Shown here in pieces: positions 539 to 36,697 of a stretch of DNA of 46,883 nucleotides. Origin of the DNA: Nitrospira sp. (GTDB lineage: Bacteria; Nitrospirota; Nitrospiria; Nitrospirales; Nitrospiraceae); contig JAHBWT010000025.1 in NCBI GenBank assembly GCA_019636815.1, positions 1 through 46,883 on the forward strand. Reading direction: 5' to 3'. The notes below the pieces were generated by a model, which ran no database searches, had not been told where the DNA came from, and saw only the letters and a list, made by a program, of their open reading frames with translations. Position numbers and translations under genes: made by a program. Position 1 is the first letter of the stretch. Each line of letters starts with the position of its first letter.

Positions 539-3500
539 GTGGTGTCCCATTTTCGACTGAGTTTGTTGATCGTACTCAGCTTGGTAGTATTGGTGGGAGC
601 CTTCCTCGCGTTCTCACGGGAGTTGATAGGGCAAGACTATCTCAAAGATTTTGTTCTTGAACAACTCGAAGAGGGCCTGGGCCGAAAAATCGACGTTCGT
701 CGTGTTCGATTGGTCGTTTTCCCGAGTATACGTGCAGAGCTCCTTGATGTTGCGATTCATGCCCCCCAGTCGGAGCAAGTCGTATTAACTGCCAAACGGG
801 TTGATCTTGTCCTGCGCCTGGGACCTCTCCTTAAAAAACAAGTCGTTGGGAAGCGATTGTTGATCGAAGAACCGGTGCTGGCTCTTAGGCGGAATGAAGA
901 TGGCCGTTGGAATATTTTTGATGGGGAGAGCGCCCAGGCAGATACCGACCTGAGAACGATGAACATGATGGCCGGGACGTTCAGGATCAAAGAAGCCAAG
1001 ATCGCGAACGGTATGATCACCGTCATCGATGCCGCGAGGACTGATGGAATTCGGTCGGCGAAGTTGGACCATGTCGAATTTTCCATGGTGATCAGGCCAG
1101 ACCGCGGACTTGCAGAATTGCATGCATCGGTCAGGCATCAAGGCGCAGGAGGGGTGTCGACTCTCTCGCTCAATGGAGTGGTCAAAGGGGCGGACGCATC
1201 AGTATCTTTGACCGGGGAAGAGGCGGGGGAGCCGCCGTCAGGGTATCAATTTGAAGGGCAGATAGAAGTAGCAGATCTGAGGGTTCGCGAAGCGGCCGAC
1301 TTTCTTGGCCCCAGACCGGTTTCTGAACAGCTCCAGGGTGCTCTGAATCTGCGGAGTTCAGTCCGGGTACTGCCGGGAATTGCCGGATACGATATGGTGT
1401 TGTCCGACATGACCGCGAGGTTGAGCGACATTGCGCTGACAGGTCATGCGAACCTAGCGGGGCTGTTGACTCCTCAACCCACCTTTTCCGTTACATTCTC
1501 CAGCGCTCCCGTCGCTGTTCGCAAGCTGGTGAACACAATTCCTCCGGATTGGATTTCACCGCGACTGCCGGCGTTTCTGGCGGACCACCAGATCGACGGT
1601 AGCGTGCAGGCGGTTCGTGCCACGCTGACTGGGTCTACGATGACCGGTCAACACATGTTGACCACGGGAGAGTTCCGGGTTCGCGACGGACAAGGCGTCA
1701 TCGGTCGTGATCGCACGGCAGTGCAAGACCTGGCCGCGGTGGTCATGGTGGAAACCGGACGTGTTCGTATCACGAAAGTGACCGGAACGTATGGAGCGAT
1801 GCAACTTACCGACGGAAAGGCTGACGTGTCGTTTCTAGAGAAAGGACCAATGCTGGCACTGGAGGTTACGGGAGAAATGGCCGTGGCGCCATTGGTGGAA
1901 TTTCTTGGAAAGACCGTAAAGACGGAGCTTGTCCTAAAGATCCTGGCAGGTATCCATAACCTTGAGGGAATTGCGGAGGGGACGTTTCGTCTCGTCGGTC
2001 CATTGGATCGGGCCGATCAGATTACTTTCGAAGGCGGGGAGATTACAGCTCGCCAGGTAAGTCTCAGCCATGTTGCATTGCCAGAGCGGTTGACCGGGAT
2101 CCAAGGGCGGTTCATCTTGACGGGTGGATCCGCGCAACTTGAGGAAGTGGTTGGGCATCTTGGGGAAACAGCTCTGCAAGTCCAAGGGATGATCACCGGT
2201 GGAACGACGAGTCTCTTTCAAGATTTTGTCATTCACGCACGGGGAGATGCGTCTCAGTTGGAGCGGCTGTTCAGATCCACCGCTATCGAACAGGGGGTGT
2301 TCGAGGGAACACTGAGCTCGACGGTGGTACTGTCAGGCTCGACGTCAAAGCCGCAAATCAAAGGCTCATTCGCATTCGATGAAGCCAAAGTGGTACTTGG
2401 GTCACTGGAGAAACCCATCGGAGCTCGCGCCACGGTGGAGTTTGATGGCATCCTGCCTCCCCGAAGCGGCGTGACATTGGATCGGGTGGAGCTCGTCTTA
2501 CCCAGGATAACCATACCTGCGAAGGGAACCATGCACCTTGGTGATCGCTTCCGGATCAATATGGCGATCATGACAAGAAGCTTGTCGATGTCGAGTTTGC
2601 CGGAATGGGTTTCCAAGGCCGGGCTTGAGGCGGGTAATCTCGATCTTTCGCTTGATATCAAGGGCAAAGGAACAGACTGGAAGGCGTGGAGAGTGACGGG
2701 ATGGATGGGGATGACCAATGGCTTGATGCGTGTGAACGGAGTCAGTGGACAGCTTCAGGATCTCTATGCTCGTGTACGATTTGCGCGCAATGAGGTTGAC
2801 CTCAAGCGGCTCTCATTCAGGCTTCAAGACAGCGATCTTGCCCTTGAAGCTACGGTTCGAAACTGGTTGGTGAAACCTGCCATCACCGGCAAGATCGAAT
2901 CCGACCAGCTCGATTTGAGCCTTGTGATTCCAAAGGGCGAGCGGTCTCCGATGAGGGAATTCCTTGAAACCTTGGCGGCGACCAGTCACGTGACCATGTC
3001 TGCATCTGTTGCAAGGGGACACTATAGACATATGAAGTTGACCGCGCTCTCCGCTCGAATCAATATTCAGGATGGAGTGCTTGACATCGACCGTTTGTCC
3101 GGGGAGTCTAGTCATGGCCACGTAGCCGGACGACTTGTGGCGCACCTTCCTCCCAAGGCACCGGCGGATATTGATCTCTCGTTCAGAGCCACCGGAGTGG
3201 AATTTGATGATCTCTTGCGACTGACCAATGCGCAGATCCATGGCGTGTCGGGCGAAGCTCGCTTGAGCGGAGTGCTTCGTGGACACGGACGCAATCCCCA
3301 TGGAATCTATCCTTCATTGAACGGAAAAATCGAGGTCCTGTTGGAAAATGGGCGTGTCCTCAAATCGAATGAGCGGGCGATATGGAAAATCATCAGCCTC
3401 TTGAACGTCCCTGCGGTGTTGCAAGGGAAGGTTGATCTGGAAAAGGAAGGATTGCCGTACAACAGAATTACCGCGACCGTTGCGATTCAAAACGGCATGT

Positions 3501-3901
3501 TTCAGACGGAAAATCTGATCATCGATAGCCCGATTCTACGGATTACGGCTGCCGGGAATTATGACTTGCCGACCGATCATCTGGATCTGGCTGTCGCGGT
3601 AAGTCCGTTCGGGTCCTATTCGCAATTTCTCAAGACCATCCCGCTCTTTGGTCGTGTGATCGCAGGAGAACGAAAGGGGTTAGCGACTGCGATGTTCACC
3701 ATGCAGGGGGCGATGGAAGATCCGAAGGTGACCTATCTCCCCGTGAAGTCTTTTGCGTCCGGCCTATCGGGATTGGCTCAACTCGCCGTCGATGTCCTCA
3801 CAAACACCCTCACACTTCCGATCGATCTCGTGGCACCCAATGAAGAAACTGAGGTGAAGCCGAGAGACCTGTCTCGCTCACCAGCTCCTGCCATTCCATG
3901 A
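539..3901 (+). CDS. AsmA-family large envelope protein
   Basis: A 1120-residue protein starting at GTG 539 behind a G-rich stretch that can act as ribosome site. Residues 6-27 are a hydrophobic anchor with a short cytoplasmic N terminus. The rest is a long beta-rich repetitive region, as in AsmA/YhdP/TamB-type proteins, which are thought to move phospholipids or assist outer-membrane assembly from the inner membrane. The section after the anchor (DYLKDFVLEQLEEGLGRKIDV, followed by a description of layer after layer of beta strands) is AsmA-like. The last 200 residues (ENGRVLKSNERAIWKIISLL, then YDLPTDHLDLAVAVSPFGSYS) match the AsmA C-terminal region. It stands alone between an IS end and the M24 peptidase. 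The family call is firm; the exact role is not known. Confidence 0.85.
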   Translation: MVSHFRLSLLIVLSLVVLVGAFLAFSRELIGQDYLKDFVLEQLEEGLGRKIDVRRVRLVVFPSIRAELLDVAIHAPQSEQVVLTAKRVDLVLRLGPLLKKQVVGKRLLIEEPVLALRRNEDGRWNIFDGESAQADTDLRTMNMMAGTFRIKEAKIANGMITVIDAARTDGIRSAKLDHVEFSMVIRPDRGLAELHASVRHQGAGGVSTLSLNGVVKGADASVSLTGEEAGEPPSGYQFEGQIEVADLRVREAADFLGPRPVSEQLQGALNLRSSVRVLPGIAGYDMVLSDMTARLSDIALTGHANLAGLLTPQPTFSVTFSSAPVAVRKLVNTIPPDWISPRLPAFLADHQIDGSVQAVRATLTGSTMTGQHMLTTGEFRVRDGQGVIGRDRTAVQDLAAVVMVETGRVRITKVTGTYGAMQLTDGKADVSFLEKGPMLALEVTGEMAVAPLVEFLGKTVKTELVLKILAGIHNLEGIAEGTFRLVGPLDRADQITFEGGEITARQVSLSHVALPERLTGIQGRFILTGGSAQLEEVVGHLGETALQVQGMITGGTTSLFQDFVIHARGDASQLERLFRSTAIEQGVFEGTLSSTVVLSGSTSKPQIKGSFAFDEAKVVLGSLEKPIGARATVEFDGILPPRSGVTLDRVELVLPRITIPAKGTMHLGDRFRINMAIMTRSLSMSSLPEWVSKAGLEAGNLDLSLDIKGKGTDWKAWRVTGWMGMTNGLMRVNGVSGQLQDLYARVRFARNEVDLKRLSFRLQDSDLALEATVRNWLVKPAITGKIESDQLDLSLVIPKGERSPMREFLETLAATSHVTMSASVARGHYRHMKLTALSARINIQDGVLDIDRLSGESSHGHVAGRLVAHLPPKAPADIDLSFRATGVEFDDLLRLTNAQIHGVSGEARLSGVLRGHGRNPHGIYPSLNGKIEVLLENGRVLKSNERAIWKIISLLNVPAVLQGKVDLEKEGLPYNRITATVAIQNGMFQTENLIIDSPILRITAAGNYDLPTDHLDLAVAVSPFGSYSQFLKTIPLFGRVIAGERKGLATAMFTMQGAMEDPKVTYLPVKSFASGLSGLAQLAVDVLTNTLTLPIDLVAPNEETEVKPRDLSRSPAPAIP

Positions 3902-3914
3902 CCGAGCTCGATTC

Positions 3915-3943
3915 TTGACCGACCCCTGCCTCCGTGCTAGCAT
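3915..3943 (+). promoter_or_regulatory. Putative sigma-70 promoter for the M24 peptidase gene
   Basis: TTGACC (3915-3920) and TAGCAT (3938-3943) are separated by exactly 17 bases, just after the asmA-like stop codon. Transcription would begin near 3950 and give a leader of about 165 bases before the ATG at 4116. I saw no convincing riboswitch fold in that leader. The same -10 hexamer appears in the lipoprotein-operon promoter at 36914. Confidence 0.45.
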
Positions 3944-4115
3944 CCTCTTCAGAGCGCTGAGAATGTTGGCCGGTTTTTCCCTCACGTCGGGAAGCCCCTC
4001 ACGCCACTTCAGTGTGTATGTCGAGGACAGTCAATTGCGGTAGGGCATTACCATGCGCCCATCTTGAGTATGGTCTCCATGTCAAGCCGGGTGCCGTGAT
4101 TTCGGTAATCTTTCT

Positions 4116-5264
4116 ATGAAACGCACGACACTCTCTCACGCAGAAGCGGCGACGCTGTTTATCGCTGCCAGCGAGTACGACTCAAATCTCTACTACGCGA
4201 CGCGATTCATCGCCCCGGATCCATTTATCTATCTGGAAATTAAAGGCGAGCGAGTGATGATTATGAGCGATCTTGAGATGGATCGCGCCAAGACCCAGGC
4301 GACAGTGGATCGCGTGCTGTCCTATTCTGAAATCGAGCGGAAGGCCAAACGGCACGGGATCAAACATCCGGTGACGATCGATATTGTACACATGGTCTTA
4401 AAAGAGCGGAATGTCCGTCGGCTGCTGGTGCCCGCTAATTTTCCTTTCATCTACGCCACTCGGTTGCAGGAATTGGGGTATAGCCTCAAGCCGAAACGCG
4501 ATCCGTTTTACGAGCAGCGTGTCATGAAAAGTGCGGAAGAAGTTCGACATATTGAGTTTTCCCAGCGGGCCACTGAAGATGCCGTCGCTTCAGCCCACGA
4601 TCTGCTCCGGCGGGCGACTATCCGGGATGGAGCGCTCTGGAGTGACGGAGTGGTATTGACATCCGAGCGGGTCAAGCAGCTGATCAACGTCAAGCTCATG
4701 GAACGCAACTGTGTGGCCCAGCATACGATCGTGGCGGGAGGCGAACAGGCCTGTGATCCACACGATGAGGGCAGTGGACCGTTGCCGGCCCATCGCAGCA
4801 TCATTTTTGACGTATTCCCCCGATCCGCAACAAGCCGCTATTTTGCCGACATGTCGCGCACTGTGATTCGCGGAACGGTGCGCCCAGAACTAAAACGATT
4901 GTATGGCGTCGTGAAAGACGCCCAGGAGGAAGCGATCGCCAAGATTAAAGACGGCGCTGATGGGATGAAGATCCATCAAGGCATTTGTGCACGTTTTGAA
5001 AAGGCGGGATACAAGACGGGTTTGGTGAATGGGCGGATGCACGGCTATTTTCACGGGACCGGGCATGGAGTGGGGCTCGATATTCATGAAGCGCCGCGCA
5101 TTAGTCGAACCGGCTCACTTCTTCAAGAAGGCCATGTTGTCACGGTCGAACCAGGGCTGTACTACCCCGGACTGGGGGCAGTTCGGATAGAGGACATGGT
5201 CTTGGTCACAAAGGATGGTTGCCGCAATCTCACCAACTTCCCAAAGGTGCTTGAGCTCGACTAG
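4116..5264 (+). CDS. M24-family metallopeptidase (Xaa-Pro aminopeptidase type)
   Basis: A 382-residue cytoplasmic enzyme predicted to remove an N-terminal residue before proline. The N-terminal creatinase-like domain covers residues 1-130. The pita-bread catalytic domain follows, and all five metal ligands can be placed: D232 (IIFDVFPR), D245 (FADMSRT), H317 (HGTGHGVGLDIHE), E345 (VTVEPGLYY) and E359 (RIEDM). The first ligand sits in DVF rather than the commoner DxG, with FPRSATSRYFADMSRT following it. The length fits PepQ/PepP-like proteins. It is a single gene, convergent with the minus-strand sthA gene. The family is firm, but the substrate cannot be read from the sequence. Confidence 0.88.
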   Translation: MKRTTLSHAEAATLFIAASEYDSNLYYATRFIAPDPFIYLEIKGERVMIMSDLEMDRAKTQATVDRVLSYSEIERKAKRHGIKHPVTIDIVHMVLKERNVRRLLVPANFPFIYATRLQELGYSLKPKRDPFYEQRVMKSAEEVRHIEFSQRATEDAVASAHDLLRRATIRDGALWSDGVVLTSERVKQLINVKLMERNCVAQHTIVAGGEQACDPHDEGSGPLPAHRSIIFDVFPRSATSRYFADMSRTVIRGTVRPELKRLYGVVKDAQEEAIAKIKDGADGMKIHQGICARFEKAGYKTGLVNGRMHGYFHGTGHGVGLDIHEAPRISRTGSLLQEGHVVTVEPGLYYPGLGAVRIEDMVLVTKDGCRNLTNFPKVLELD

Positions 5265-5391
5265 ACGCAGGCTATTCAAACTCTCAGCTCGGTCGTTCTC
5301 CCGCCATTTGTCTGCTCCATGTCTGTGTCACGACTTTCAGGTCGCGCGGAGAAAAGTGGTGTAGATCAATAAGTCCAATCGCCCTAAAGTG

Positions 5392-6807
5392 TTACGCCGC
5401 TTTGGCCGCTCGACGTTTTGCCACCTGGCCCAAGACGTCGAGCGCGGCGATCCGGTAGGCTTCCGCATAGGTCGGAAAATTGAAGATGTTATCGATGAAC
5501 GATTCGATTGTAGCGGAGCTTTGGAGGGCCAATTGTCCGATATGAACCAATTCCGTCGCTGAATCCCCGACAATCTGCACTCCCAGGAGGTGCTCTCCTT
5601 CAGGATCAGCCACCATCTTGAGTAACCCGTGGCCTGCCCCTGATATTTGGGCGCGAGCAACTTCTTCAAACTTTGCTCGTCCGATCAACGGATCTCGATA
5701 CCGTTCCCGTGCGCCCTTCTCATCAAGGCCGATGCTGGCCATTTCCGGAATCGTATAGATGCCCATGGGGATTGTTGAGGCGGTGTCGCCGACTGGGAGG
5801 TTCAGGGCGTGGCGGACGGCACGCCGACCTTCTTCCATAGCCTTTGACGCCAAGGCTGGTGCCCCGACCATATCGCCGACAGCGTAGATGTGAGAGACAT
5901 TCGTCTGGCAGTATTGGTTTACCGGGATCACACCTTTATCTGAAACCAGGATCCCAGCTGCGGGAAGATTTAAGCCTTCGACGTTGGCTTGACGTCCTAG
6001 GGCGACCAGCATCTTTTCGCTCGTAATTGTCGTCCCATCGCTCAGCTTCGTGACGACGTGTGCCACCTCGTTCCATCGCACCTCGCTAATGGCCCGCCCA
6101 CCGAGGTAGCGCGCATTCCGTTCCTCGAAGCCTTGCACGAACTGTTGGACGAGTTCTCGATCCATGAATTGCAGCGGGTACTCTCCCCGGTCGATCAGGG
6201 TGACGTCTACTCCCAGCAAGGCAAAGATGGAAGCATACTCGCAGCCGATGACGCCGCCTCCGATCACTGTCAGCGATTGTGGTAAGTACATCATGGAAAG
6301 GAGCGAATCGCTGTCAAGGATGTGTTCGTGATCGACAGAAATCTCTTTGGAGCTGCGAGGGCAAGACCCCGTTGCGACGACGATGATGTCGGCTGTGAAT
6401 TGTTGGCAGACTCCATCCACGGTTTGCATCTCGATGATGTGCTCGTTGAGGAAGCGCGCGCGGCCATGAAACAGGGAGATGCCGTTTCGACGGAGCTGTC
6501 GGCTCATAAAAGAATCATGCGCCTGAACGACGCTCTCAAGGCGGTTCAAGAGGGTTGCGATTTGCGTGTCTGGCTTAAGGTTGAATTGAAATGCTTCGCC
6601 TGCTCGCTTGAGGCGGTCAAGATGGAGTGCGCTTTCACGCAACGTCTTGCTGGGGATCGTCCCGCGATAGACGCAACTGCCGCCGATGCCTCGTTCCCGT
6701 TCGATCAGGGCGACGCGTTTTCCTGCTTTGGCGCCTTGGACTGCCGCTTTTTGGCCGGCGGGACCGGCGCCGATAACGATGATATCGAAGGCAACGGGCG
6801 TACTCAT
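5392..6807 (-). CDS. sthA: Soluble pyridine nucleotide transhydrogenase (Si-specific)
   Basis: A 471-residue flavoprotein of the pyridine nucleotide-disulphide oxidoreductase fold; E. coli SthA is about the same length. It moves hydride between NADPH and NAD+ in the cytoplasm. The FAD-binding glycine motif is at residues 12-17 (IGAGPAG). At the redox-cysteine site the sequence is GGSCVYRGTIPSK: C45 is kept, but the partner position 50 is threonine. This loss of the disulphide separates SthA from lipoamide dehydrogenase and mercuric reductase. The second glycine motif (VIGGGVIGCEYASIFA) binds NAD(P). The dimerisation domain fills the last 120 residues. The start at 6807 overlaps the stop of the upstream HDOD gene by 4 bases, so the two are probably translated in a coupled way. 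Confidence 0.9.
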   Translation of the reverse strand: MSTPVAFDIIVIGAGPAGQKAAVQGAKAGKRVALIERERGIGGSCVYRGTIPSKTLRESALHLDRLKRAGEAFQFNLKPDTQIATLLNRLESVVQAHDSFMSRQLRRNGISLFHGRARFLNEHIIEMQTVDGVCQQFTADIIVVATGSCPRSSKEISVDHEHILDSDSLLSMMYLPQSLTVIGGGVIGCEYASIFALLGVDVTLIDRGEYPLQFMDRELVQQFVQGFEERNARYLGGRAISEVRWNEVAHVVTKLSDGTTITSEKMLVALGRQANVEGLNLPAAGILVSDKGVIPVNQYCQTNVSHIYAVGDMVGAPALASKAMEEGRRAVRHALNLPVGDTASTIPMGIYTIPEMASIGLDEKGARERYRDPLIGRAKFEEVARAQISGAGHGLLKMVADPEGEHLLGVQIVGDSATELVHIGQLALQSSATIESFIDNIFNFPTYAEAYRIAALDVLGQVAKRRAAKAA

Positions 6808-7667
6808 ATATTGAGCGCATTTACAACCGCTAGGACCTGATCCTTCTTGGTCAGTAGTTCGTCGATGTCGTTCGGATAGAGGTTCAACTCCGGGAAGACC
6901 GGTTGAGTGCGAAGCGATTCATCCGACATCTCCTGTGGTGAAAGCATGTGACTGGCAAGCCGATCGGAGGCACAGGTGAGCAGGCATTCCTGCCGGAAGG
7001 AATCGGCATGCTCGTAATCATCATAGTATTGAATGGCTGTGGCCACTTGTTTAGGCAAGCCCCACTTCTCAGCAATCAGGGTGCCGACACGGGAATGATA
7101 GCCGTCGATCCATCCGAGCAGGGTCGATCGCTCAACGGTGCCACACTCCGTCTGTGCGAGCGCCGTTGCTGTTCGCAAAACGACCGGTTTCCCGATTTCG
7201 TGCAACAGACCGCACAGGTACGCACTTTCGACGTTGACACGCCTCATGCGGGCGACTTCCTTCGCAAAAGCCCCGCTCGCTAGAGAGTGACGCCAGAGTC
7301 GCCTCACCTCATCCTCATGTCCTGCTACCTTAAATGCGCCTGATTTTAGCGAAGCCGTAAAGGCAATCTCCGACAGCAAGGTCATGCCCAGCATCGCCAC
7401 CGCATGCTGGAGAGACGCAACGGGGCTACGGGGCATGTAGGCTGGAGAGTTGGCGATCCGCAACACGTGTGCGGCAAGGGCTTGGTCCTGGTGAATCAAA
7501 GCGGAGAGCTTCGCCGCATCGGCGGCTGGATCTGACGCCAGTGCCATCACCTGGCTGGCTGCTTGCGGGAGTAGGGGCAGTTCAATCTCACCGGTCTCGA
7601 TTTTATGAATCAACGATTGTTCCAGCCGTTCAACCGGGGTGGTTGCCGATCTCAGTTCCGATGCCAT
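6804..7667 (-). CDS. HDOD-domain signalling protein
   Basis: An HDOD protein (a degenerate HD-GYP-like domain), often found in regulatory proteins that sense or transmit signals. The domain begins near IELPLLPQAASQVMALASDP and contains LLHEIGKPVVL and the usual helical core. I chose the ATG at 7667 because GAGGAG lies 9 bases upstream. An in-frame ATG at 7778 would add 37 residues but has no ribosome site and would leave only 18 bases before the divergent gene at 7797. With the 7667 start the protein is 287 residues. The gene is followed by sthA with a 4-base overlap. A link between the two activities is not known. Confidence 0.82.
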   Translation of the reverse strand: MASELRSATTPVERLEQSLIHKIETGEIELPLLPQAASQVMALASDPAADAAKLSALIHQDQALAAHVLRIANSPAYMPRSPVASLQHAVAMLGMTLLSEIAFTASLKSGAFKVAGHEDEVRRLWRHSLASGAFAKEVARMRRVNVESAYLCGLLHEIGKPVVLRTATALAQTECGTVERSTLLGWIDGYHSRVGTLIAEKWGLPKQVATAIQYYDDYEHADSFRQECLLTCASDRLASHMLSPQEMSDESLRTQPVFPELNLYPNDIDELLTKKDQVLAVVNALNI

Positions 7668-7796
7668 GGATGTAAGCTCCTCGAACGCGAGTCGTCGGTT
7701 ACGACTACCTTTCTCGGTTGATTTCCGGTAAAAGTTTAGCAGTCGTGACTTTAGGGAAGATGGCGGACTATACTTCATCGTCTTTGTGAGGGGAGT

Positions 7797-8234
7797 ATGA
7801 ATCGAAGTCGGCTGATTGCTGGTGCAGTCGTTGTAATAGGTTCCTGGATAGTCCCCATGTCGAATATGGCGGCTGATTCCGCCGTGAGTGCCGAAAAGGT
7901 GGTAAAGGAAGCTCAGGAAGCGATCGAGGCGACCAGGCAGTATACCGTTCAGCAGAAAGAAGCGTTCCAACGGAAGGCGCAAGAGGAACTAGCAGCCATG
8001 CAGGAGCAAATTCTTGAGCTGCAGACAAAGATCGAGAAAGCCTCGGAATCCACCAGGGCCGACCTTCAGCGGTCGCTCAACGAGTTGGAGCAGAAGAAGG
8101 AAGGGGTGAGAGAGAAGCTGGACGAACTAAAAAACGCGACTGATACCAAGTGGAGCGAGGTGCGGGAACGGATGAACAGTGCCCTGGATGAATTTAAGCG
8201 ATCATACCGAAAGCTGCTCGCTCATTTGCCGTGA
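7797..8234 (+). CDS. Secreted coiled-coil protein
   Basis: A 145-residue protein with an N-terminal signal sequence: basic NRSR, a hydrophobic run at residues 6-20, and a likely cleavage after about residue 26 (NMAADSA). The mature part is almost wholly charged amphipathic helix rich in E, K, A and Q (residues 35-140), like apolipoprotein- or late-embryogenesis-type periplasmic coiled coils. It has no enzyme motif. The start is ATG 7797 behind GAGGGGAG. The downstream cupin gene begins 25 bases after the stop, so the two may be co-transcribed. I do not recognise a specific family. Confidence 0.8.
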   Translation: MNRSRLIAGAVVVIGSWIVPMSNMAADSAVSAEKVVKEAQEAIEATRQYTVQQKEAFQRKAQEELAAMQEQILELQTKIEKASESTRADLQRSLNELEQKKEGVREKLDELKNATDTKWSEVRERMNSALDEFKRSYRKLLAHLP

Positions 8235-8259
8235 TGGCCAGACCTATGGAGTATTTGCA

Positions 8260-8580
8260 ATGAAGGTTGTCACACTTGCCGACTTCCAACAGTTCGGCAG
8301 TGAGAAGATGAAGAAGAACAATGTGTTCCAGACAGAACGATTCTTCTGTGACATGTATTGTTTCGAGCCTGGACAAGACCAAAAAGGTCATGTCCATGGT
8401 CATCAAGACAAGGTGTATATCGTATTGGAGGGGCAAGGAATGTTTCAGGTCGGCACGGAACAGCGAGTCCTTGTTGCAGGGCAGGGCACACTGGCTCCAG
8501 CTGGGGAGGCGCATGGTGTGAAAAACCATACAGATGGGCGACTCAAGGTGCTGGTTTTTGTAGCTCCTAACCCGGGCTGA
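8260..8580 (+). CDS. Single-domain cupin protein
   Basis: A 106-residue protein made of one conserved beta-barrel (cupin 2). The metal site is visible as H44, H46 and H48 in GHVHGHQDK, and H85 in GEAHGVKNH. The middle strand VYIVLEGQGMFQVG is the standard inter-motif region. The start at ATG 8260 is chosen because GGAG lies about 9 bases upstream and the cupin domain needs no more N-terminal sequence; the reading frame stays open further upstream to 8179. Its substrate or effector cannot be predicted. It is followed by a strong terminator. Confidence 0.82.
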   Translation: MKVVTLADFQQFGSEKMKKNNVFQTERFFCDMYCFEPGQDQKGHVHGHQDKVYIVLEGQGMFQVGTEQRVLVAGQGTLAPAGEAHGVKNHTDGRLKVLVFVAPNPG

Positions 8581-26346: not shown

Positions 26347-26457
26347 CGAACAAATCAGCATGCGATTAGAATAATGGCCGTGTAAGGACCACCTTCGAGA
26401 CTTGACCAAGCAATCACCTGGAATCAGATCTCAAGACCCCCGCTAAATGAAACTTCA

Positions 26458-26652
26458 TCGTTGTCCAGCAGATCTCCGCAGTCCGTTGGACGGCATCGGA
26501 ACCCTTCACGGGTGACATGCCGATCCACATAAGAACCCGAGACGAATGGGCATACGGCTGCAACTTGCGGAAACAACAAAACAAATGGACGCAAATGGCA
26601 CATGTATATAATGTGTGAACGTGGTCGCATGTTATGCAGGTAACACTGCCGG
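26458..26652 (+). repeat. Dispersed direct repeat R1, copy 1
   Basis: A 195-base sequence that recurs at 31145-31338 in the same direction. I count about 26 differences and one gap, so identity is near 87%. A short frame reading PIHIRTRDEWAYGCNLRK is kept in both copies, as is an opposite-strand frame, so neither strand is clearly coding. The copy lies between the DUF5615 toxin and the broken HNH gene. It has no obvious terminal inverted repeats. The region from 26347 to its start holds nothing that I recognise. Confidence 0.85.
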
Positions 26653-26709
26653 ATGCTGTGCTTATGCGGATCGGCATCAACATAATTAGTCCATTATCCG
26701 GATCCAAAT

Positions 26710-29860: not shown

Positions 29861-29928
29861 TGGGGTTGGATCTTGAATCATGCATGGCGCAGGGGAGCAA
29901 AATTGCTCGTGCCACTCAAGACTCCCGC
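29861..29928 (+). repeat. Diverged repeat R2, copy 1
   Basis: A 68-base stretch that aligns without gaps to 32622-32689, about 72% identical by my count. Both copies end in ACTCCCGC. The gene-free region 29770-30124 holds this copy and some weak open frames, none of which I believe in. Confidence 0.45.
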
Positions 29929-30124
29929 ACCGGCCATGGTGGCCATCCACTCTTCTTTTCATGGCGTCGTACGGTGGGGCGATGCTCGACGCGGCGCGTC
30001 AGTCACGGCATACCACAAGGGAGCGTTACGGACATCAGTATTGCTTCTGTCGTTTAACCAGAGGTGGGAGGTAATCACGCGGGGATGGAGAGAGAAGTAT
30101 TGAGCCCTGCCGAGGGTTGTCCGG

Positions 30125-30215: not shown

Positions 30216-30244
30216 ATGTGTATGATTATATAAATTATACACAT
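30216..30244 (+). promoter_or_regulatory. Palindromic operator of the VapBC operon
   Basis: ATGTGTAT (30216-30223) and ATACACAT (30237-30244) are perfect 8-base complements around an AT-rich centre (GATTATATAAATT). It ends 17 bases before the VapB start, where VapB-VapC complexes usually bind to shut off their own operon. The AT-rich centre can also serve as the -10 region. Confidence 0.7.
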
Positions 30245-30261
30245 ACCGACTCGGAGGTGCC

Positions 30262-30471
30262 ATGCGTACGAATATTGTGATCGATAACGGTCTCATGCGT
30301 CAGGCGATGAAAGCCACTGGACTCTTGACGAAAAAAGCAGTGGTCGAGGAGGGGCTTCGGTTGCTCATCAAGGCGAAGGGACAAGAGGGCATTCGCCGGT
30401 TGCGGGGAAAGGTTGCGTGGGAAGGGGATCTCAGTGCGATGCGTAAGGGCCGCATCAAGGCCGCTTCATGA
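30262..30471 (+). CDS. VapB-type antitoxin
   Basis: A 69-residue protein with an N-terminal ribbon-helix-helix-like DNA-binding part (MRTNIVIDNGLMRQAMKATG, then LTKKAVVEEGLRLLIK) and a basic C-terminal tail that would cover the toxin. It is typical in size and layout of the DUF2191-type VapB family. ATG 30262 has GGAG nearby. Its stop overlaps the VapC start by 4 bases (ATGA), the standard arrangement. A palindromic operator lies directly upstream. Confidence 0.82.
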   Translation: MRTNIVIDNGLMRQAMKATGLLTKKAVVEEGLRLLIKAKGQEGIRRLRGKVAWEGDLSAMRKGRIKAAS

Positions 30472-30863
30472 TCATTGTTGATACGACGGTATGGGTGGAC
30501 TATCTGCGGGGGACCCCTTCTCCCCATGCTGAATGGCTTGAAGCTAATCTTGTGGCCGAACGACTTGGTCTGACCGATCTCATACTGTGCGAGGTGCTGC
30601 AAGGTGTTGTGAGTAACGCTCACTGTGACGCCGTTCAAAAAGAATTGCAGAGATTCGAAGTCTACGAGACAGGAACGATTGAACTGGCGATTGAAGCGGC
30701 TGCGAACTATCGCCGACTTCGTGCGGCCGGCCGGACTGTTCGAAGGACGATCGATTGTCTCATTGCAACATTCTGTCTCGTCGAGGGTCACGCATTGCTG
30801 CACAATGATCGGGACTACGATCCATTTGAAGCGCACCTCGGTTTAAGAGTGGTCCATCCATAA
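30468..30863 (+). CDS. VapC-type PIN-domain toxin
   Basis: A 131-residue PIN-domain ribonuclease, the usual length. The acidic active site is present: D5 (MIIVDTTVWVDYL), E42 (LILCEVLQG), D96 (RTIDCLIA) and D114/D116 (HNDRDYDPF). VapC toxins cut tRNA or rRNA when the antitoxin is lost; which RNA is cut here cannot be read. The gene is intact, unlike the RelE remnant next door, so the pair can be an active addiction module. Confidence 0.87.
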   Translation: MIIVDTTVWVDYLRGTPSPHAEWLEANLVAERLGLTDLILCEVLQGVVSNAHCDAVQKELQRFEVYETGTIELAIEAAANYRRLRAAGRTVRRTIDCLIATFCLVEGHALLHNDRDYDPFEAHLGLRVVHP

Positions 30864-31144
30864 AGAGATTTGGCGGCGTTTGTCCCAATCAGCAAGATCT
30901 CCGCGACGCGAATGCCATTCTCCCAGAGAAGTGGGCCTGAAAATATGCGGTTGAGGGTTGCAATACTGTACTCCTGTTCCTGGCCTTTTGCTCGGTAGAA
31001 AATTACCTTCATTCACGTCCTTCTCTCATACTTGTTTAAGGTCGGCTGGGGTCTGGGAATGCGCTATTCGACGATCAGTCGCATTATGGATCAAGGAAGG
31101 TCAGTAATGCGTAGTACAAGATCTGCCCCCAATTAGTGACCCCC
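30864..31144. other. Gene-free stretch before repeat R1 copy 2
   Basis: I see no gene here. A 65-codon minus-strand frame (30815-31012) has no ribosome site or recognisable domain. The few bases before 31145 (AAGATCTGCCCCCAATTAG) resemble, loosely, the text before R1 copy 1, so the repeat may extend some 20 bases to the left. Confidence 0.4.
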
Positions 31145-31338
31145 TCGTGGTCCAGCAGATCTCTGCAGTCCGTTGGGCCGCATCTGAACCCTTCACGGGT
31201 GACAAGCCGATCCACATAAGAACCCGAGACGAATGGCCATACGGTTGCAACTTGCGGAAACAAGGATACAAATGGACACAAATGACAGATGCATCATTGT
31301 GTGAATGTGGTTGTGTGCTATGCGGGTTACACTGCTGG
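31145..31338 (+). repeat. Dispersed direct repeat R1, copy 2
   Basis: This 194-base copy is in the same orientation as copy 1 at 26458-26652. Together they bracket the HNH remnant, the MBL/PD-(D/E)XK pair, the RelE relic and VapBC, a block of about 4.5 kb. Copy 2 is followed immediately by the first attC-like hairpin. Unlike copy 1 it keeps a longer open plus-strand frame, which runs in frame into the SGNH gene. Confidence 0.85.
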
Positions 31339-31371
31339 CTGTCGCGCGTGGTTCGGAACGCGATGCATGTC

Positions 31372-31451
31372 CCGAACCAGCGGCTGCGCCGGACAGTCGT
31401 TGCACAACCGGCGGTTGCTCCACACTTGCCGGTGAGCCGCGGGCCGTTCGG
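31372..31451. other. attC-like hairpin upstream of the SGNH gene
   Basis: An 80-base imperfect palindrome. The end boxes are CCGAAC (31372-31377) and GTTCGG (31446-31451), fully complementary. Further inside, GCGGCT pairs AGCCGC, CCGG pairs CCGG, and the tip is a perfect CAACCG-G-CGGTTG. Unpaired bases between these stems give the bulged single-strand look of integron attC sites. The essential AAC/GTT triplets are kept, but the commoner GTTRRRY consensus is broken by a C after GTT. The SGNH start lies 10 bases beyond. A second 7-base inverted repeat (GGTTCGG at 31350 with CCGAACC at 31372) overlaps its left box. Confidence 0.5.
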
Positions 31452-31460
31452 CAACACGGC

Positions 31461-32591
31461 ATGAAATTCCCCAAACGAATGCTTGCCATCCTCGCTGTCA
31501 ACTGCCTGCTGCTCGGCATCGGCCTTGTGGCTGTAGAGCTGGTCTTTGGCTGGTGGTTTGACACTAGCAGTCTGAACCGTCTCAACCTCCTCAAAGACTG
31601 TGTTCGGCAGCTCGATGTGTCACATCTGTACAACGATCCGAACCCCATTATTCGGTATTCACGGGATAAGTATGGTTTACGTGGTACTCATGACAGACCA
31701 GGCAGCATCGACATTCTTACAGTTGGCGGGAGTACTACAGACCAGCGTTACATTCGGGATGGAGAAACCTGGCAAGACGTGCTTCAAAACCGTTTTGCAC
31801 GAACAGGAGTGACTGTGGTTGTCGGAAATGCCGGCGTAGATGGACAATCGACCTATGGTCATATCAAGAATTTCGAGTGGTGGTTCCCATACATCCCCGA
31901 CCTCAAACCAGGTTACATTCTATTTTATGTTGGGCTGAACGACTTTTACATGGATGCCGGATACAGTCATGACCAGATTGTGAGTGAAGAACAGAACCTC
32001 AAGCAAAAACTTAAAGATAACAGTGCAGTGTGGCACATGATTAGGACGCTTCGTGGTGCCTACAAAGCGATGGTCGTCAACAAGATTGGACATGTTGCTC
32101 TTGACTTCAGCAATGTTCACTGGACGCGCGATTCAATTCAGAAGGACTATAGTATGATGGACCAAAGACTAAGTGACTACGCGACTCGTCTGCGTGCTCT
32201 TGCAGACATGACCCATAGCTTTGGGGCAAAGCCGATTTTTGTGTCTCAGCCTTCGCGCAAGTATCGCATCACGCCAGAGGGGCCAATGGGGGACAGATCG
32301 GTCAGTTTCTACGATGGTCATCAGTACAACGGTGTTGATTACTATCACATGATGAGAAAACTCGACGGTGTTACGAAAGCTGTAGCTAAGGAGAAAGATG
32401 GTTTGTTTGTGGACCTGGCGATCCATGCTGGGTGGGTTGACTCCGACTTTTATGATTTCGCACACATGACGCCAAAGGGGGCAGAAAAGACAGGAGAACT
32501 CTTGTGGGGTGCATTGAAGAACGTAGTCACCGGTGCCGAACAAGACGCTGTGTTGGACGGGGATTCCGCTGCGCTTCATCCCCGCCAGTGA
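31461..32591 (+). CDS. Membrane-anchored SGNH/GDSL hydrolase
   Basis: A 376-residue protein with an N-terminal signal anchor (residues 6-30) and a periplasmic SGNH domain. Block I is VGGSTTDQR with S91; block II glycine is in GNAGVDGQS; block III is GLNDFY with N160; block V is DFAHMT with D332 and H335. It could be an esterase or acyltransferase, perhaps acting on surface polysaccharides; the substrate is unknown. ATG 31461 is chosen because the hydrophobic anchor starts there; the frame is open upstream. The ribosome site is weak. It lies alone between two attC-like hairpins, so it looks like a transferable cassette. Confidence 0.8.
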   Translation: MKFPKRMLAILAVNCLLLGIGLVAVELVFGWWFDTSSLNRLNLLKDCVRQLDVSHLYNDPNPIIRYSRDKYGLRGTHDRPGSIDILTVGGSTTDQRYIRDGETWQDVLQNRFARTGVTVVVGNAGVDGQSTYGHIKNFEWWFPYIPDLKPGYILFYVGLNDFYMDAGYSHDQIVSEEQNLKQKLKDNSAVWHMIRTLRGAYKAMVVNKIGHVALDFSNVHWTRDSIQKDYSMMDQRLSDYATRLRALADMTHSFGAKPIFVSQPSRKYRITPEGPMGDRSVSFYDGHQYNGVDYYHMMRKLDGVTKAVAKEKDGLFVDLAIHAGWVDSDFYDFAHMTPKGAEKTGELLWGALKNVVTGAEQDAVLDGDSAALHPRQ

Positions 32592-32606
32592 GCTTTGTCG
32601 TTCGGC
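32535..32606. other. attC-like hairpin at the end of the SGNH gene
   Basis: A 72-base imperfect palindrome that overlaps the last codons of the SGNH gene. The end boxes GCCGAAC (32535-32541) and GTTCGGC (32600-32606) are perfect 7-base complements. Inside them GCT pairs AGC, TGG pairs CCA, and CGGGGAT pairs ATCCCCG around a 12-base loop; one extra A is bulged on the left arm. The layout is that of an integron attC site. No U-run follows, so it does not look like an ordinary terminator. The crossover points of this site and the one at 31446 would be 1154 bases apart. Confidence 0.5.
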
Positions 32607-32621
32607 GTCAAATTCTGAGTT

Positions 32622-32689
32622 TGAGGTCGAATCTTGAATTGTGCATAGCGCAGCAGAGCACTTTCAACCTTGTCACTCGATACTCCCGC
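32622..32689 (+). repeat. Diverged repeat R2, copy 2
   Basis: Aligns without gaps to 29861-29928 at about 72% identity. It begins 16 bases after the second attC-like hairpin. The gene-free stretch 32592-32828 has no other recognisable content. Confidence 0.45.
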
Positions 32690-32828
32690 TAAGGCGATGC
32701 TCGTCAATCACGGTTCTCTCCAGTGCATACTCGCTCGCCCATTGCGTCAGGCGCAATCCTGTAGACCGCCGGCTCACCACCAGCATCCTTCTTAGAGCTC
32801 CAACCTATCAGCTCTCCTCAGCCGAGAA

Positions 32829-33241: not shown

Positions 33242-35131
33242 TTACTCCTCAATCGTCGAGATATCTCCAGGGTCTTGCCCCAGTTCTTTCGCTTTGAGTA
33301 CACGGCGCATGATCTTGCCGGACCGGGTTTTCGGGAGTGACGGGACGATGTCAATTTCAGACGGCACGCCGATCTTGCCCAATTCTTTCAGGACCTGATC
33401 CTTGATCGACTTGATCAGCTCCGGGCTTTCCTGCTCACCCTGCTTCAAGATGATGAAGGCCTTGATGGATTCACCGACCGTCTTGTGTGGCTTGCCGATC
33501 ACGGCGGCCTCCGCGACGGCAGGATGACTGACCAAGGCGCTTTCAACCTCAGCCGTTCCGAGCCGATTGCCGGCAACTTTAATCACGTCGTCGGCTCGGC
33601 CCATGAACCAGAAGTAGCCGTCTGCATCTTTATGACAGACATCGCCGGCCGAATAACAGTTAGGGATGGTGGACCAGTAGCTCTTGTACCGCTCGGGGTC
33701 CTTGTAAATGGTGCGCATCATGGCCGGCCAAGGCTTTTTGATCACGGCAAATCCGCCGGCGTTTGCCGGCAAGCTGTTTCCTTGGCGATCGACCACATCG
33801 GCCTCGATACCAAGGAACGGGCGCGTCGCCGAGCCAGGTTTGAGTGGCACGGTAGGAAGAGGCGTGATCAAGATCGATCCGGTTTCGGTCTGCCACCAGG
33901 TGTCCATGATGGGTTTATCTTCTCCTGTCGCACGATGAAACCATTCCCAGGCTTCCGGGTTGATCGGTTCTCCCACGCTGCCGAGGATGCGGAGTGTCGA
34001 GAGGTCGAATTTCTTGGGCCAGTCTTCGCCGTAACGCATGAGCAATCGGATGGCCGTCGGAGTCGTATAAAAAATCGAGACCCCATACCGTTCGATGAGA
34101 TCCCACCAACGACCAGGGTTCGGGTAGTCGGGTTTGCCCTCTGCGGCCAGAATCGTGGCGCCGTTGAGGAGCGGACCGTACACGATGTAACTGTGGCCTG
34201 TCACCCAGCCTGGGTCGGCCACGCAGAAGTAGACGTCGTCGTCTTTCAAGTCAAAGACATACTTCGTCGTTGTATAGGTGCCGACCATGTATCCGCCATG
34301 GACGTGGACTACACCCTTCGGCCGACCGGTCGTCCCGGAGGTGTAGAGAATGTAGAGCGGTGTCTCGGCATCCAAGTGCTCAGCGTCGCACACAGGCTGC
34401 TCGCTCTCGATCCACTCTCTCCACTCGATTTCTTTTGGAGCGATCAGGGGAGCCTGCTGGGTCTGGCGTCGCACGACAATCACGTGGTTGACGGAAGGAC
34501 AGGTTTTAAGCGCCTCGTCCACGACGGTCTTCACGTGAGTGGGCTTTCCACGGTCGAATCCGACATCGGCGGTGATCACGACCTTGGCTTCCGCATCGTT
34601 GACACGACTGGCGAGCGCTGGGGCGCTGAAGCCTGAATAGACGACGCTGTGAATGAGACCGATCCTGGCGCAAGCCAGCATCGCAATGACCTGTTCAGGA
34701 ATTTTCGGCAGGTAGATGGTGACCCGATCTCCCTTTTGAAGGCCCAGCTTTTTGAGAGCATTGGCACAGCGGTTGACCTGCCGATAGAGTTCGCCATAGG
34801 TGAATATGCGCTCCTGATTGTCTTCGCCTACCCAGATCAGCGCGACTTTGTTTTTGCGCCACGTCTTGACGTGACGATCGAGACAGTTATAGGCGATATT
34901 GCAGCGTGCACCGACAAACCATTTCGCCCAGGGGTAGTCCCATTCCAGAACCTTTTCCCAGGGAGTGAACCAGTGGAGTTCCTTGGCCGCCTGGCTCCAA
35001 AATGCTTCGGGGTCAGCGATGGATTTCTGGTACTCTGTCTCGTAATCCTGAATGTAGGCGGCGGCCGTTGTCTTTGCCGAGGGGTGATAGGTCCGACTTT
35101 CTTTCAGGAGCGTCTCAATCTTGTCACTCAT
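33242..35131 (-). CDS. acs: Acetyl-coenzyme A synthetase
   Basis: A 629-residue AMP-forming enzyme that makes acetyl-CoA from acetate, ATP and CoA. The ATP-phosphate motif is YTSGTTGRPKGV, the adenine-binding region is DTWWQTETGS, and the lysine that is acetylated in enteric bacteria is K606 in PKTRSGKIMRR. ATG 35131 is chosen because homologues start there and GGAG lies 11-13 bases upstream; the frame is open to 35206. The gene runs away from the caspase-like gene at 35324, with a 190-base region between them that must hold promoters for both. It ends just before the small membrane protein. Confidence 0.95.
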   Translation of the reverse strand: MSDKIETLLKESRTYHPSAKTTAAAYIQDYETEYQKSIADPEAFWSQAAKELHWFTPWEKVLEWDYPWAKWFVGARCNIAYNCLDRHVKTWRKNKVALIWVGEDNQERIFTYGELYRQVNRCANALKKLGLQKGDRVTIYLPKIPEQVIAMLACARIGLIHSVVYSGFSAPALASRVNDAEAKVVITADVGFDRGKPTHVKTVVDEALKTCPSVNHVIVVRRQTQQAPLIAPKEIEWREWIESEQPVCDAEHLDAETPLYILYTSGTTGRPKGVVHVHGGYMVGTYTTTKYVFDLKDDDVYFCVADPGWVTGHSYIVYGPLLNGATILAAEGKPDYPNPGRWWDLIERYGVSIFYTTPTAIRLLMRYGEDWPKKFDLSTLRILGSVGEPINPEAWEWFHRATGEDKPIMDTWWQTETGSILITPLPTVPLKPGSATRPFLGIEADVVDRQGNSLPANAGGFAVIKKPWPAMMRTIYKDPERYKSYWSTIPNCYSAGDVCHKDADGYFWFMGRADDVIKVAGNRLGTAEVESALVSHPAVAEAAVIGKPHKTVGESIKAFIILKQGEQESPELIKSIKDQVLKELGKIGVPSEIDIVPSLPKTRSGKIMRRVLKAKELGQDPGDISTIEE

Positions 35132-35323
35132 AGCGCGAGGATCTCCTTCAACAGAGCGGTCCATTGTGTGGGCCATGATTATGGAGAAAGCCGAAAGGAG
35201 CTGCAACCATCCATTTCCTCCTGAGCGTTATTGCCACGGTGATCGTGCCTGCCCTCTACTTGGTTTCTTGACACTGGCTTGGGTGGAAGATAGGCTGGCA
35301 GCATCAACGATGCCAAGCAAGTT

Positions 35324-36697
35324 ATGAAAAGGCCGTGGATTATTGTGCTGGCTCCTGTTCTGCTGGCTGCGCATGTGCTTGGTGCATTCCAATCTTCTTC
35401 CGTTTCCACCGTACATGCTCAATTAGGGAAGCCCGAAGGGCTCTATTACAAATCTTGGGCGATCGTGATCGGGATTGAAAACTATCTGGTGGCCCCGCCA
35501 ATTCCTGGAGCGATCACTGATGCGAGGAAAGTCGCCGAAGCATTCCGGCAATTGGGGTTTGATGAGGTCATTGAGTTCTACGACAAGGATGCCAGCTCAC
35601 GGCGCCTGCACCAGGTTTTCAACGACCTGTTGCCGAGAAAAGTCGGGCGCATGGATCGATTGGTGATGTTCTATGCGGGTCATACCGGTTCGAGGCAAGA
35701 TGCCGATGGGCAAGATCGAGGATATCTCGTGCCGTTTGATGCACCAGTTAACAACGCCACTAAGTCGGTCACGGTTGAACAGCTCAAGGAGTTTACCAGG
35801 CGGTCCGCCTCAAAGCACATCCTGTTGATCCTGGATGTCCCGATCTTTGGATGGGAAATGACCAAGCCGCAAGGGCTTACCCTGGAAGGGCGGTTGAGTC
35901 CAGAATCGGAGGCAGAGCGCCGCGCGGTTCAAGTGATTAGCGCGGCCAGTCAGGGCGAAGTGTCCGAGCGACCCGATAACAGGAGCCGCTTCGTTCACAC
36001 GCTCTTAACAGGACTGTCGGGAGCAGCGGATCTCGATAAGAATGGCTGGCTTATGGCTTCCGAACTCGGCACCTATCTCGCGCAACAAGTCGGAGCGGTT
36101 TCCAGCGGCAAGCAAATTCCGATGAGTCTACGCATAGAGGGAGATGGCGATACGGTGCTCATCGAAGGACGCCAATCGGCCTTGACGTTCGGCGCGGAGC
36201 CTCAGACGCCTGCCGAACGACAGCAACAGGCGAAGGTCCAATACGAACGCGCCTTTGCATTGCTCCAGGAAGGGAAGGCGATCGAAGAGGCGGTCGAACG
36301 GCTGGATCGCGCGATCGAGTACGATCCCACCTATGGCGACGCGTATGTCCTCAAGAGTTATGTTCGATTGGAAGTTCTTCCAAATCTTGATGAGGCCCTG
36401 CGTGCCGGTCTGCTTGCTGCGCAGTACGCGCCGGACAACCCCGATTCCTTTTACATGCTGGGTGTGATCTATGAAAAGCGCGGGAAGTTTCGGGATGCCG
36501 AGGCCACGTTCCAACAGGCGCTGCGCGTGAACAACGCCTACCAGGACGCCTACTTCGCGTTGGGGACGTTATACGCCGATCGACTCAACGAGCCGCAAAA
36601 GTCGGTCGAGGCGTTTCGCCGGTACGTCGAGCTGGGTGGCACCCATGATCGAGCTCGTGCAGCTGTGGATCAAGCCGATCGCACACCAAAGCCTTAG
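35324..36697 (+). CDS. Caspase-fold (C14) protein with TPR repeats, catalytic Cys lost
   Basis: A 457-residue secreted or periplasmic protein. After a signal-type N terminus (residues 1-33) comes a peptidase C14 domain: strand SWAIVIGIENY, the histidine motif FYAGHTG (H120), and at the cysteine strand ILLILDVPIFG where active members have LLLDACYSG. The cysteine position is P173, so the site cannot act as a cysteine protease. Three or more TPR repeats follow (about residues 285-450: AKVQYERAFALLQEGKAIEE, NLDEALRAGLLAAQYAPDNP, RDAEATFQQALRVNNAYQDA). It probably works as a binding scaffold. It precedes a lipoprotein operon on the same strand. Confidence 0.82.
   Translation: MKRPWIIVLAPVLLAAHVLGAFQSSSVSTVHAQLGKPEGLYYKSWAIVIGIENYLVAPPIPGAITDARKVAEAFRQLGFDEVIEFYDKDASSRRLHQVFNDLLPRKVGRMDRLVMFYAGHTGSRQDADGQDRGYLVPFDAPVNNATKSVTVEQLKEFTRRSASKHILLILDVPIFGWEMTKPQGLTLEGRLSPESEAERRAVQVISAASQGEVSERPDNRSRFVHTLLTGLSGAADLDKNGWLMASELGTYLAQQVGAVSSGKQIPMSLRIEGDGDTVLIEGRQSALTFGAEPQTPAERQQQAKVQYERAFALLQEGKAIEEAVERLDRAIEYDPTYGDAYVLKSYVRLEVLPNLDEALRAGLLAAQYAPDNPDSFYMLGVIYEKRGKFRDAEATFQQALRVNNAYQDAYFALGTLYADRLNEPQKSVEAFRRYVELGGTHDRARAAVDQADRTPKP

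Follow-up and report, generated by a model that had tools for sequence, protein, structure and literature searches.

Positions 31447 to 32600 of a Nitrospira contig hold an integron gene cassette in a CALIN of two attC sites, very probably the remnant of a sedentary integron beside acs that is now without its integrase. The window, which is the whole stretch of DNA that was analysed, corresponds to an entire contig (C62, 46,883 bp) of a draft genome of 4.01 Mb, assembled into 143 contigs and 95% complete. A single gene lies between two G^TT crossover points (31446/31447 and 32600/32601), with its stop inside an attC site and with gene and attC on the same strand, as in integron cassettes (Table 1). 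The gene starts 9 nt 3' of attC1 and reaches into attC2 with its last 18 sense codons. The R'' and R' boxes, which carry AAC and GTT, form six of seven pairs in attC1, where the outermost pair is a C-C mismatch (CCCGAAC/GTTCGGC), and all seven in attC2. An earlier sequence-only reading of this DNA had placed both hairpins and the gene as described here, with coordinates right within one base, and its count of 1154 bases between the crossover points was correct, as was its statement that the gene ends inside the second hairpin. The gene also begins just past the first hairpin, as claimed. The integron-type cassette proposed on these grounds is now supported by a covariance model, the register of the extrahelical bases, the anatomy of the cassette and the way in which similarity among attC1 relatives breaks off at the crossover point.

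Table 1. Positions of the cassette, its flanking sites and associated features (window coordinates unless a locus is given).
Feature	Position	Strand	Remarks
attC1, left attC site	31371..31452	+	82 nt; R'' CCCGAAC 31371-31377, extrahelical A 31393, R' GTTCGGC 31446-31452
attC2, right site, the cassette's own attC	32535..32606	+	72 nt; R'' GCCGAAC 32535-32541, extrahelical A 32557, R' GTTCGGC 32600-32606
Integron gene cassette, crossover to crossover (G^TT)	31447..32600	+	1154 bp; from box positions and similarity among attC1 relatives ending at GTT
SGNH/GDSL hydrolase cassette gene	31461..32591	+	376 aa
29-nt palindrome overlapping the attC1 R'' box	31350..31378	.	from fold and alignments
Fragment of small gene just 5' of attC1	31145..31341	+	second copy of 26454-26688; 86% identical
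acs (acetate-CoA ligase), conserved locus anchor outside the cassette	33242..35206	-	TIGR02188, 876 bits; conserved in genus
Three decayed integron integrase genes, own genome	L012:9530-9736, L014:18178-19003, L015:10727-10968		

Box complementarity and hairpin stability alone could not prove that the hairpins are attC sites. The pair of R boxes, searched genome-wide as GCCGAACN{45,75}GTTCGGC, was found 3 times compared with 5 times for the backward control, that is, not above chance. With respect to shuffled sequences, the DNA fold energy of attC1 was unremarkable (z of -0.6 and -1.2) and that of attC2 modest (z of -1.5 and -1.9), and an Rfam scan of the window gave no family match. Since box pairs and fold energy alone would not decide the matter, an attC covariance model (R1) was built from independent data. 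The integron integrase (TIGR02249 over cut-off) was present in 8 of the 79 genomes of the genus and in 63 of 296 genomes of the phylum, and the DNA flanking it, together with a few loci with long integrase relics, served as source. Palindromes with attC boxes were gathered from these loci, oriented by the extrahelical A and then aligned, and R1 was derived from 24 aligned sites, with the window left out of training. The training set is supported by one of its sites, which shares 91-95% identity with attCs from class 1 resistance cassettes.

When R1 was run without filters on the window, attC2 scored 37.8 bits (E 3.9e-8) and attC1 26.0 bits (E 6.2e-5), both on the + strand and with E-values that are rough owing to a short calibration. 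The reverse strand of attC2 reached just 10.3 bits, and the next unrelated place in the 46.9 kb 8.7 bits. At genome scale, attC1 on its own is weak (E 0.005). The model is specific and not very sensitive: no match at E <= 5 was obtained in 87 kb of loci from ten unrelated bacteria, and in a Klebsiella resistance array it recovered two attCs, although more cassettes than that are present, and the strands again differed to a similar degree (51 versus 16 bits). The sequence-only reading had named a covariance model as the means to check its proposal, and both sites came out well above background. The joint match of the two sites to real attCs in sequence and structure is far above chance, and both hairpins are genuine attC sites.

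Nearly all training sites have an unpaired A, as part of GAC, at base 23 of the left arm, and both window sites have GAC at 22-24. Read from the sequence, A23 and G16 on the top strand correspond in both sites to an extrahelical T and C on the bottom strand with a six-base spacing (T-N6-C), which is the spacing preferred by tested integrases (PMC3053210). The L box pairing of attC2, read in the same way on the bottom strand, contains three A-C oppositions, an imperfection that may reflect partial decay. Strict GTTRRRY does not describe the boxes, GTTCGGC having C at the first R. The sequence-only reading had seen this deviation correctly and had taken it as a possible variant, a view that did not hold, as GTTCGGC is used in an array next to an intact IntI in a congener (G041:C25). 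Strict GTTRRRY is therefore no valid ground for exclusion here; GTTCGGC core boxes are normal in this setting, and strict GTTRRRY filters would lose such sites.

Relatives of attC1 occur in 21 of 79 genomes, where they sit at many different places and beside different sequences. Places in G017 and G064 match 31337-31453 with 85-87% identity, a level at which attC1 also matches sites near IntI in congeners. In an alignment of the window with 19 related places, the attC part was present in 18 of the 19, and similarity ended at or close to GCCGTT, with mostly different sequence thereafter. Such a loss of similarity at GTT is the expected behaviour of crossover at G^TT, and the comparison confirms the left boundary of the cassette. 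The leading hexamer of the cassette, TTCGGC, plus G, complements the attC2 R'' perfectly, and the attC1 R'' mismatches at its outer base; as judged from these letters, a mismatch between R'' and R' of attC1 would be expected if the two stem from different cassettes. The strong palindrome overlapping the R'' box (GTTCGGG…CCCGAAC) is common to most of the closest attC1 relatives, and in the copies from G017 and G064 it is preceded by another palindrome like it (L053:12244-12420, L055:17054-17230).

The hairpins might instead be copies of a dispersed REP or MITE-like palindromic repeat, or terminators mimicking attC, and the gene an ordinary chromosomal one. The number of loci with attC1 relatives would suit this explanation, and so would box pairs and hairpin stability that alone are not above chance. 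However, the copies of a repeat should agree at both ends, and here the right limit is GTT, followed by differing sequence. Moreover, the match to attCs is asymmetric, favouring the + strand, with the extrahelical base in register; five copies of the attC1 family have an intact IntI or an IntI relic within about 1.5 kb, one of them on contig C73 of the same genome; no relatives of attC2 were found in the genus, where only a repeat downstream of it gave matches; and no T-run follows either site, neither of which was called terminator-like. We regard this explanation as very improbable. The repeat downstream of attC2 is dispersed in the genus and present in the window at 29862-29966 and 32616-32726, the latter copy starting about 10 nt after attC2.

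The 376-aa product of the cassette gene has a hydrophobic N-terminus and matches GDSL/SGNH lipases (PF13472 above cut-off). The catalytic residues S91, G125, N160, D332 and H335 are invariant among six homologues, so that the S, G, N and D-x-x-H blocks of the family are in place. The start codon is consistent with the closest homologues, and the final 18 residues, encoded by attC2, are without counterpart in them. Homologues with 48-63% identity occur in bins named Smithella, Nitrosovibrio, Verrucomicrobia, Parabeggiatoa and Caldithrix, and the GC content of the gene, 0.50, is lower than that of the window (0.55) or of acs (0.56). No close homologue was found in 39 congeners (best identity 22-23%). 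Hairpins and gene fixed together in many relatives, a pattern that the sequence-only reading had set against its own proposal, were thus looked for and not seen. The patchy distribution of the gene points to a putative horizontal gain. The same reading had suggested looking for the gene bounded by the same hairpins at other sites, and this was not the case: around the homologues from Smithella, Nitrosovibrio, Verrucomicrobia and others, neither R1 nor a relaxed scan gave convincing attCs. A search on plasmids yielded no match for the gene, and a scan for promoters around the cassette gave no signal above that of shuffled sequences. Being scattered over unrelated phyla with no attC detectable there, the gene may have stood alone before its capture into a cassette.

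The acs region is conserved in the genus from about 33000, downstream of the cassette. In G017, an intact intI lies about 6.6 kb from acs, with attCs that include an attC1 relative in between. IntI relics are found next to acs in G064 and G015, attCs at the locus in G011, G030 and G046, and weak attCs with damaged boxes in G012 and G009. In several congeners, the DNA covered around acs contains no attC and no IntI. IntI, its relics and attCs at acs in congeners share the orientation of the window, and in the loci of the genus that were examined, intI and the attCs occupy the same strand and the array follows downstream of intI. Both attC1 and attC2 are unlike the terminal attC common to G011, G030 and G009. 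Weak IntI-like matches (8-14 bits) in G012, G030, G041 and G011 were not counted as relics, and the one in G012 overlaps the small gene of which the window has two copies. A search for intI in related genomes and on other contigs, as had been proposed earlier, therefore brought to light intact IntI, relics or attCs at acs in congeners as well as three relics in the genome under study. The position of the cassette probably represents what is left of a chromosomal integron locus adjoining acs, and not a random insertion. In the genus as a whole, at least one attC-like site (E <= 0.001) is present in 64 of 79 congeners, and a full IntI in just 8.

Several neighbouring features were also recorded. 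The small-gene copies at 26454-26688 and 31145-31341 (…SEPFTGDKPIHIRTRDEWPYGCNLRKQGYKWTQ…) are 86% identical, and similar sequence occurs beside acs in eight congeners; the fragment at 31145-31341 is a probable remnant of the preceding cassette. Upstream of the cassette lies a VapC toxin gene (30468-30863, NF047959), and since the stretch 30216-30964 around it matches unrelated places in congeners, it is likely a mobile toxin-antitoxin module. Next to acs, 35324-36697 codes for a caspase-like (Peptidase_C14) protein with TPR repeats, in a region conserved in the genus.

No trace of IntI was detected on the window contig even at E <= 5, which bears out the absence noted from the sequence. The contig thus carries two attCs with no nearby integron integrase, the state of a two-site CALIN and not of a complete integron. 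The description of the cassette as 'lone' proved wrong, as about 15 attC-like sites and three IntI relics are present in the genome. These relics lie on C122, C56 and C73. An attC follows each of them downstream, on the same strand, at about 0.5-1 kb, and 1.3 kb past the relic on C73 there is a relative of attC1. Further attC clusters are located on C97 (six), C72 and C103; those on C97 form an array of six sites at 2960-8456 (L120-L122, L125, L127, L128), and no IntI match is listed for that contig.

We propose that a sedentary chromosomal integron once stood beside acs and that its integrase was later lost in this genome. While that integron was active, each attC would have been recognised by IntI through its folded bottom strand, and strand exchange at G^TT would have inserted the circular cassette in the present orientation. 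Because no trace of IntI is left at the window locus, its former presence there is something that we infer: the acs locus itself would have held IntI in this lineage, and the cassette would now be static, or mobile in trans only. Alternatively, an integrase encoded at another locus (one of the now decayed ones on C122, C56 or C73, for example) could have inserted the cassette off-site and in trans, the acs locus never having held intI in this lineage. The lack of an IntI relic in the window would fit such an event, as would the three relics elsewhere in the genome and the attC1 relative beyond the one on C73. However, an off-target event leaves a cassette with one attC and not with two flanking ones, unless it is repeated, and IntI, relics or attCs are found at the same acs locus, in the same orientation, in congeners; we therefore consider this origin unlikely. 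It is also highly improbable that the organism has a complete integron and that the cassette belongs to a working array split by the assembly. The genome is indeed a draft of 143 contigs with 95% completeness, and CALIN counts are inflated by draft assemblies (PMC9024848), but the cassette does not lie at an end of its 46.9 kb contig, on which IntI was not detectable, and the IntI-like matches in the assembly all fall below the family cut-off, three being broken relics and the others resembling different tyrosine recombinases.

With the acs-side integron as the preferred origin, the cassette has been caught after integron death, and relatives at the same locus range from an intact IntI to an isolated attC, so that integron decay can be traced in one lineage. 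We consider this decay series across the genus the most interesting aspect of the locus. A broader view, put forward tentatively, is that the genus is both a graveyard and a reservoir of integrons: attCs would persist in most species while few keep a full IntI, the attC1 family would have spread to many loci, and stranded cassettes might still be mobilised in trans by co-resident or incoming integrons.

The cassette belongs to a known and well-understood class of element, the CALIN as defined by IntegronFinder (PMC9024848), with which it shares two attCs in one orientation and no IntI on the contig. CALINs are regarded as degraded integrons, and two have been reported in Candidatus Nitrospira inopinata (PMC9024848). 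The present case differs in consisting of just two attCs and one intact cassette, and in having further CALIN-like clusters, as well as IntI relics, in other parts of the genome. The integron remnants of Treponema phagedenis (PMC3607928) are similar in that attCs and cassettes are left without intI, and its relatives keep an integron with genes oriented as intI (PMC3607928); that lineage is unrelated, however, and here many congeners are at intermediate stages of decay. In the atypical treponeme integrons (PMC3607928), as in the loci of this genus, the array lies downstream of intI on one strand. Finally, the combination of a gene with an attC and crossover at G^TT is shared with class 1 integron resistance cassettes such as aadB, from which the cassette described here differs by its chromosomal location, the absence of IntI, a non-resistance SGNH gene and GTTCGGC core boxes.
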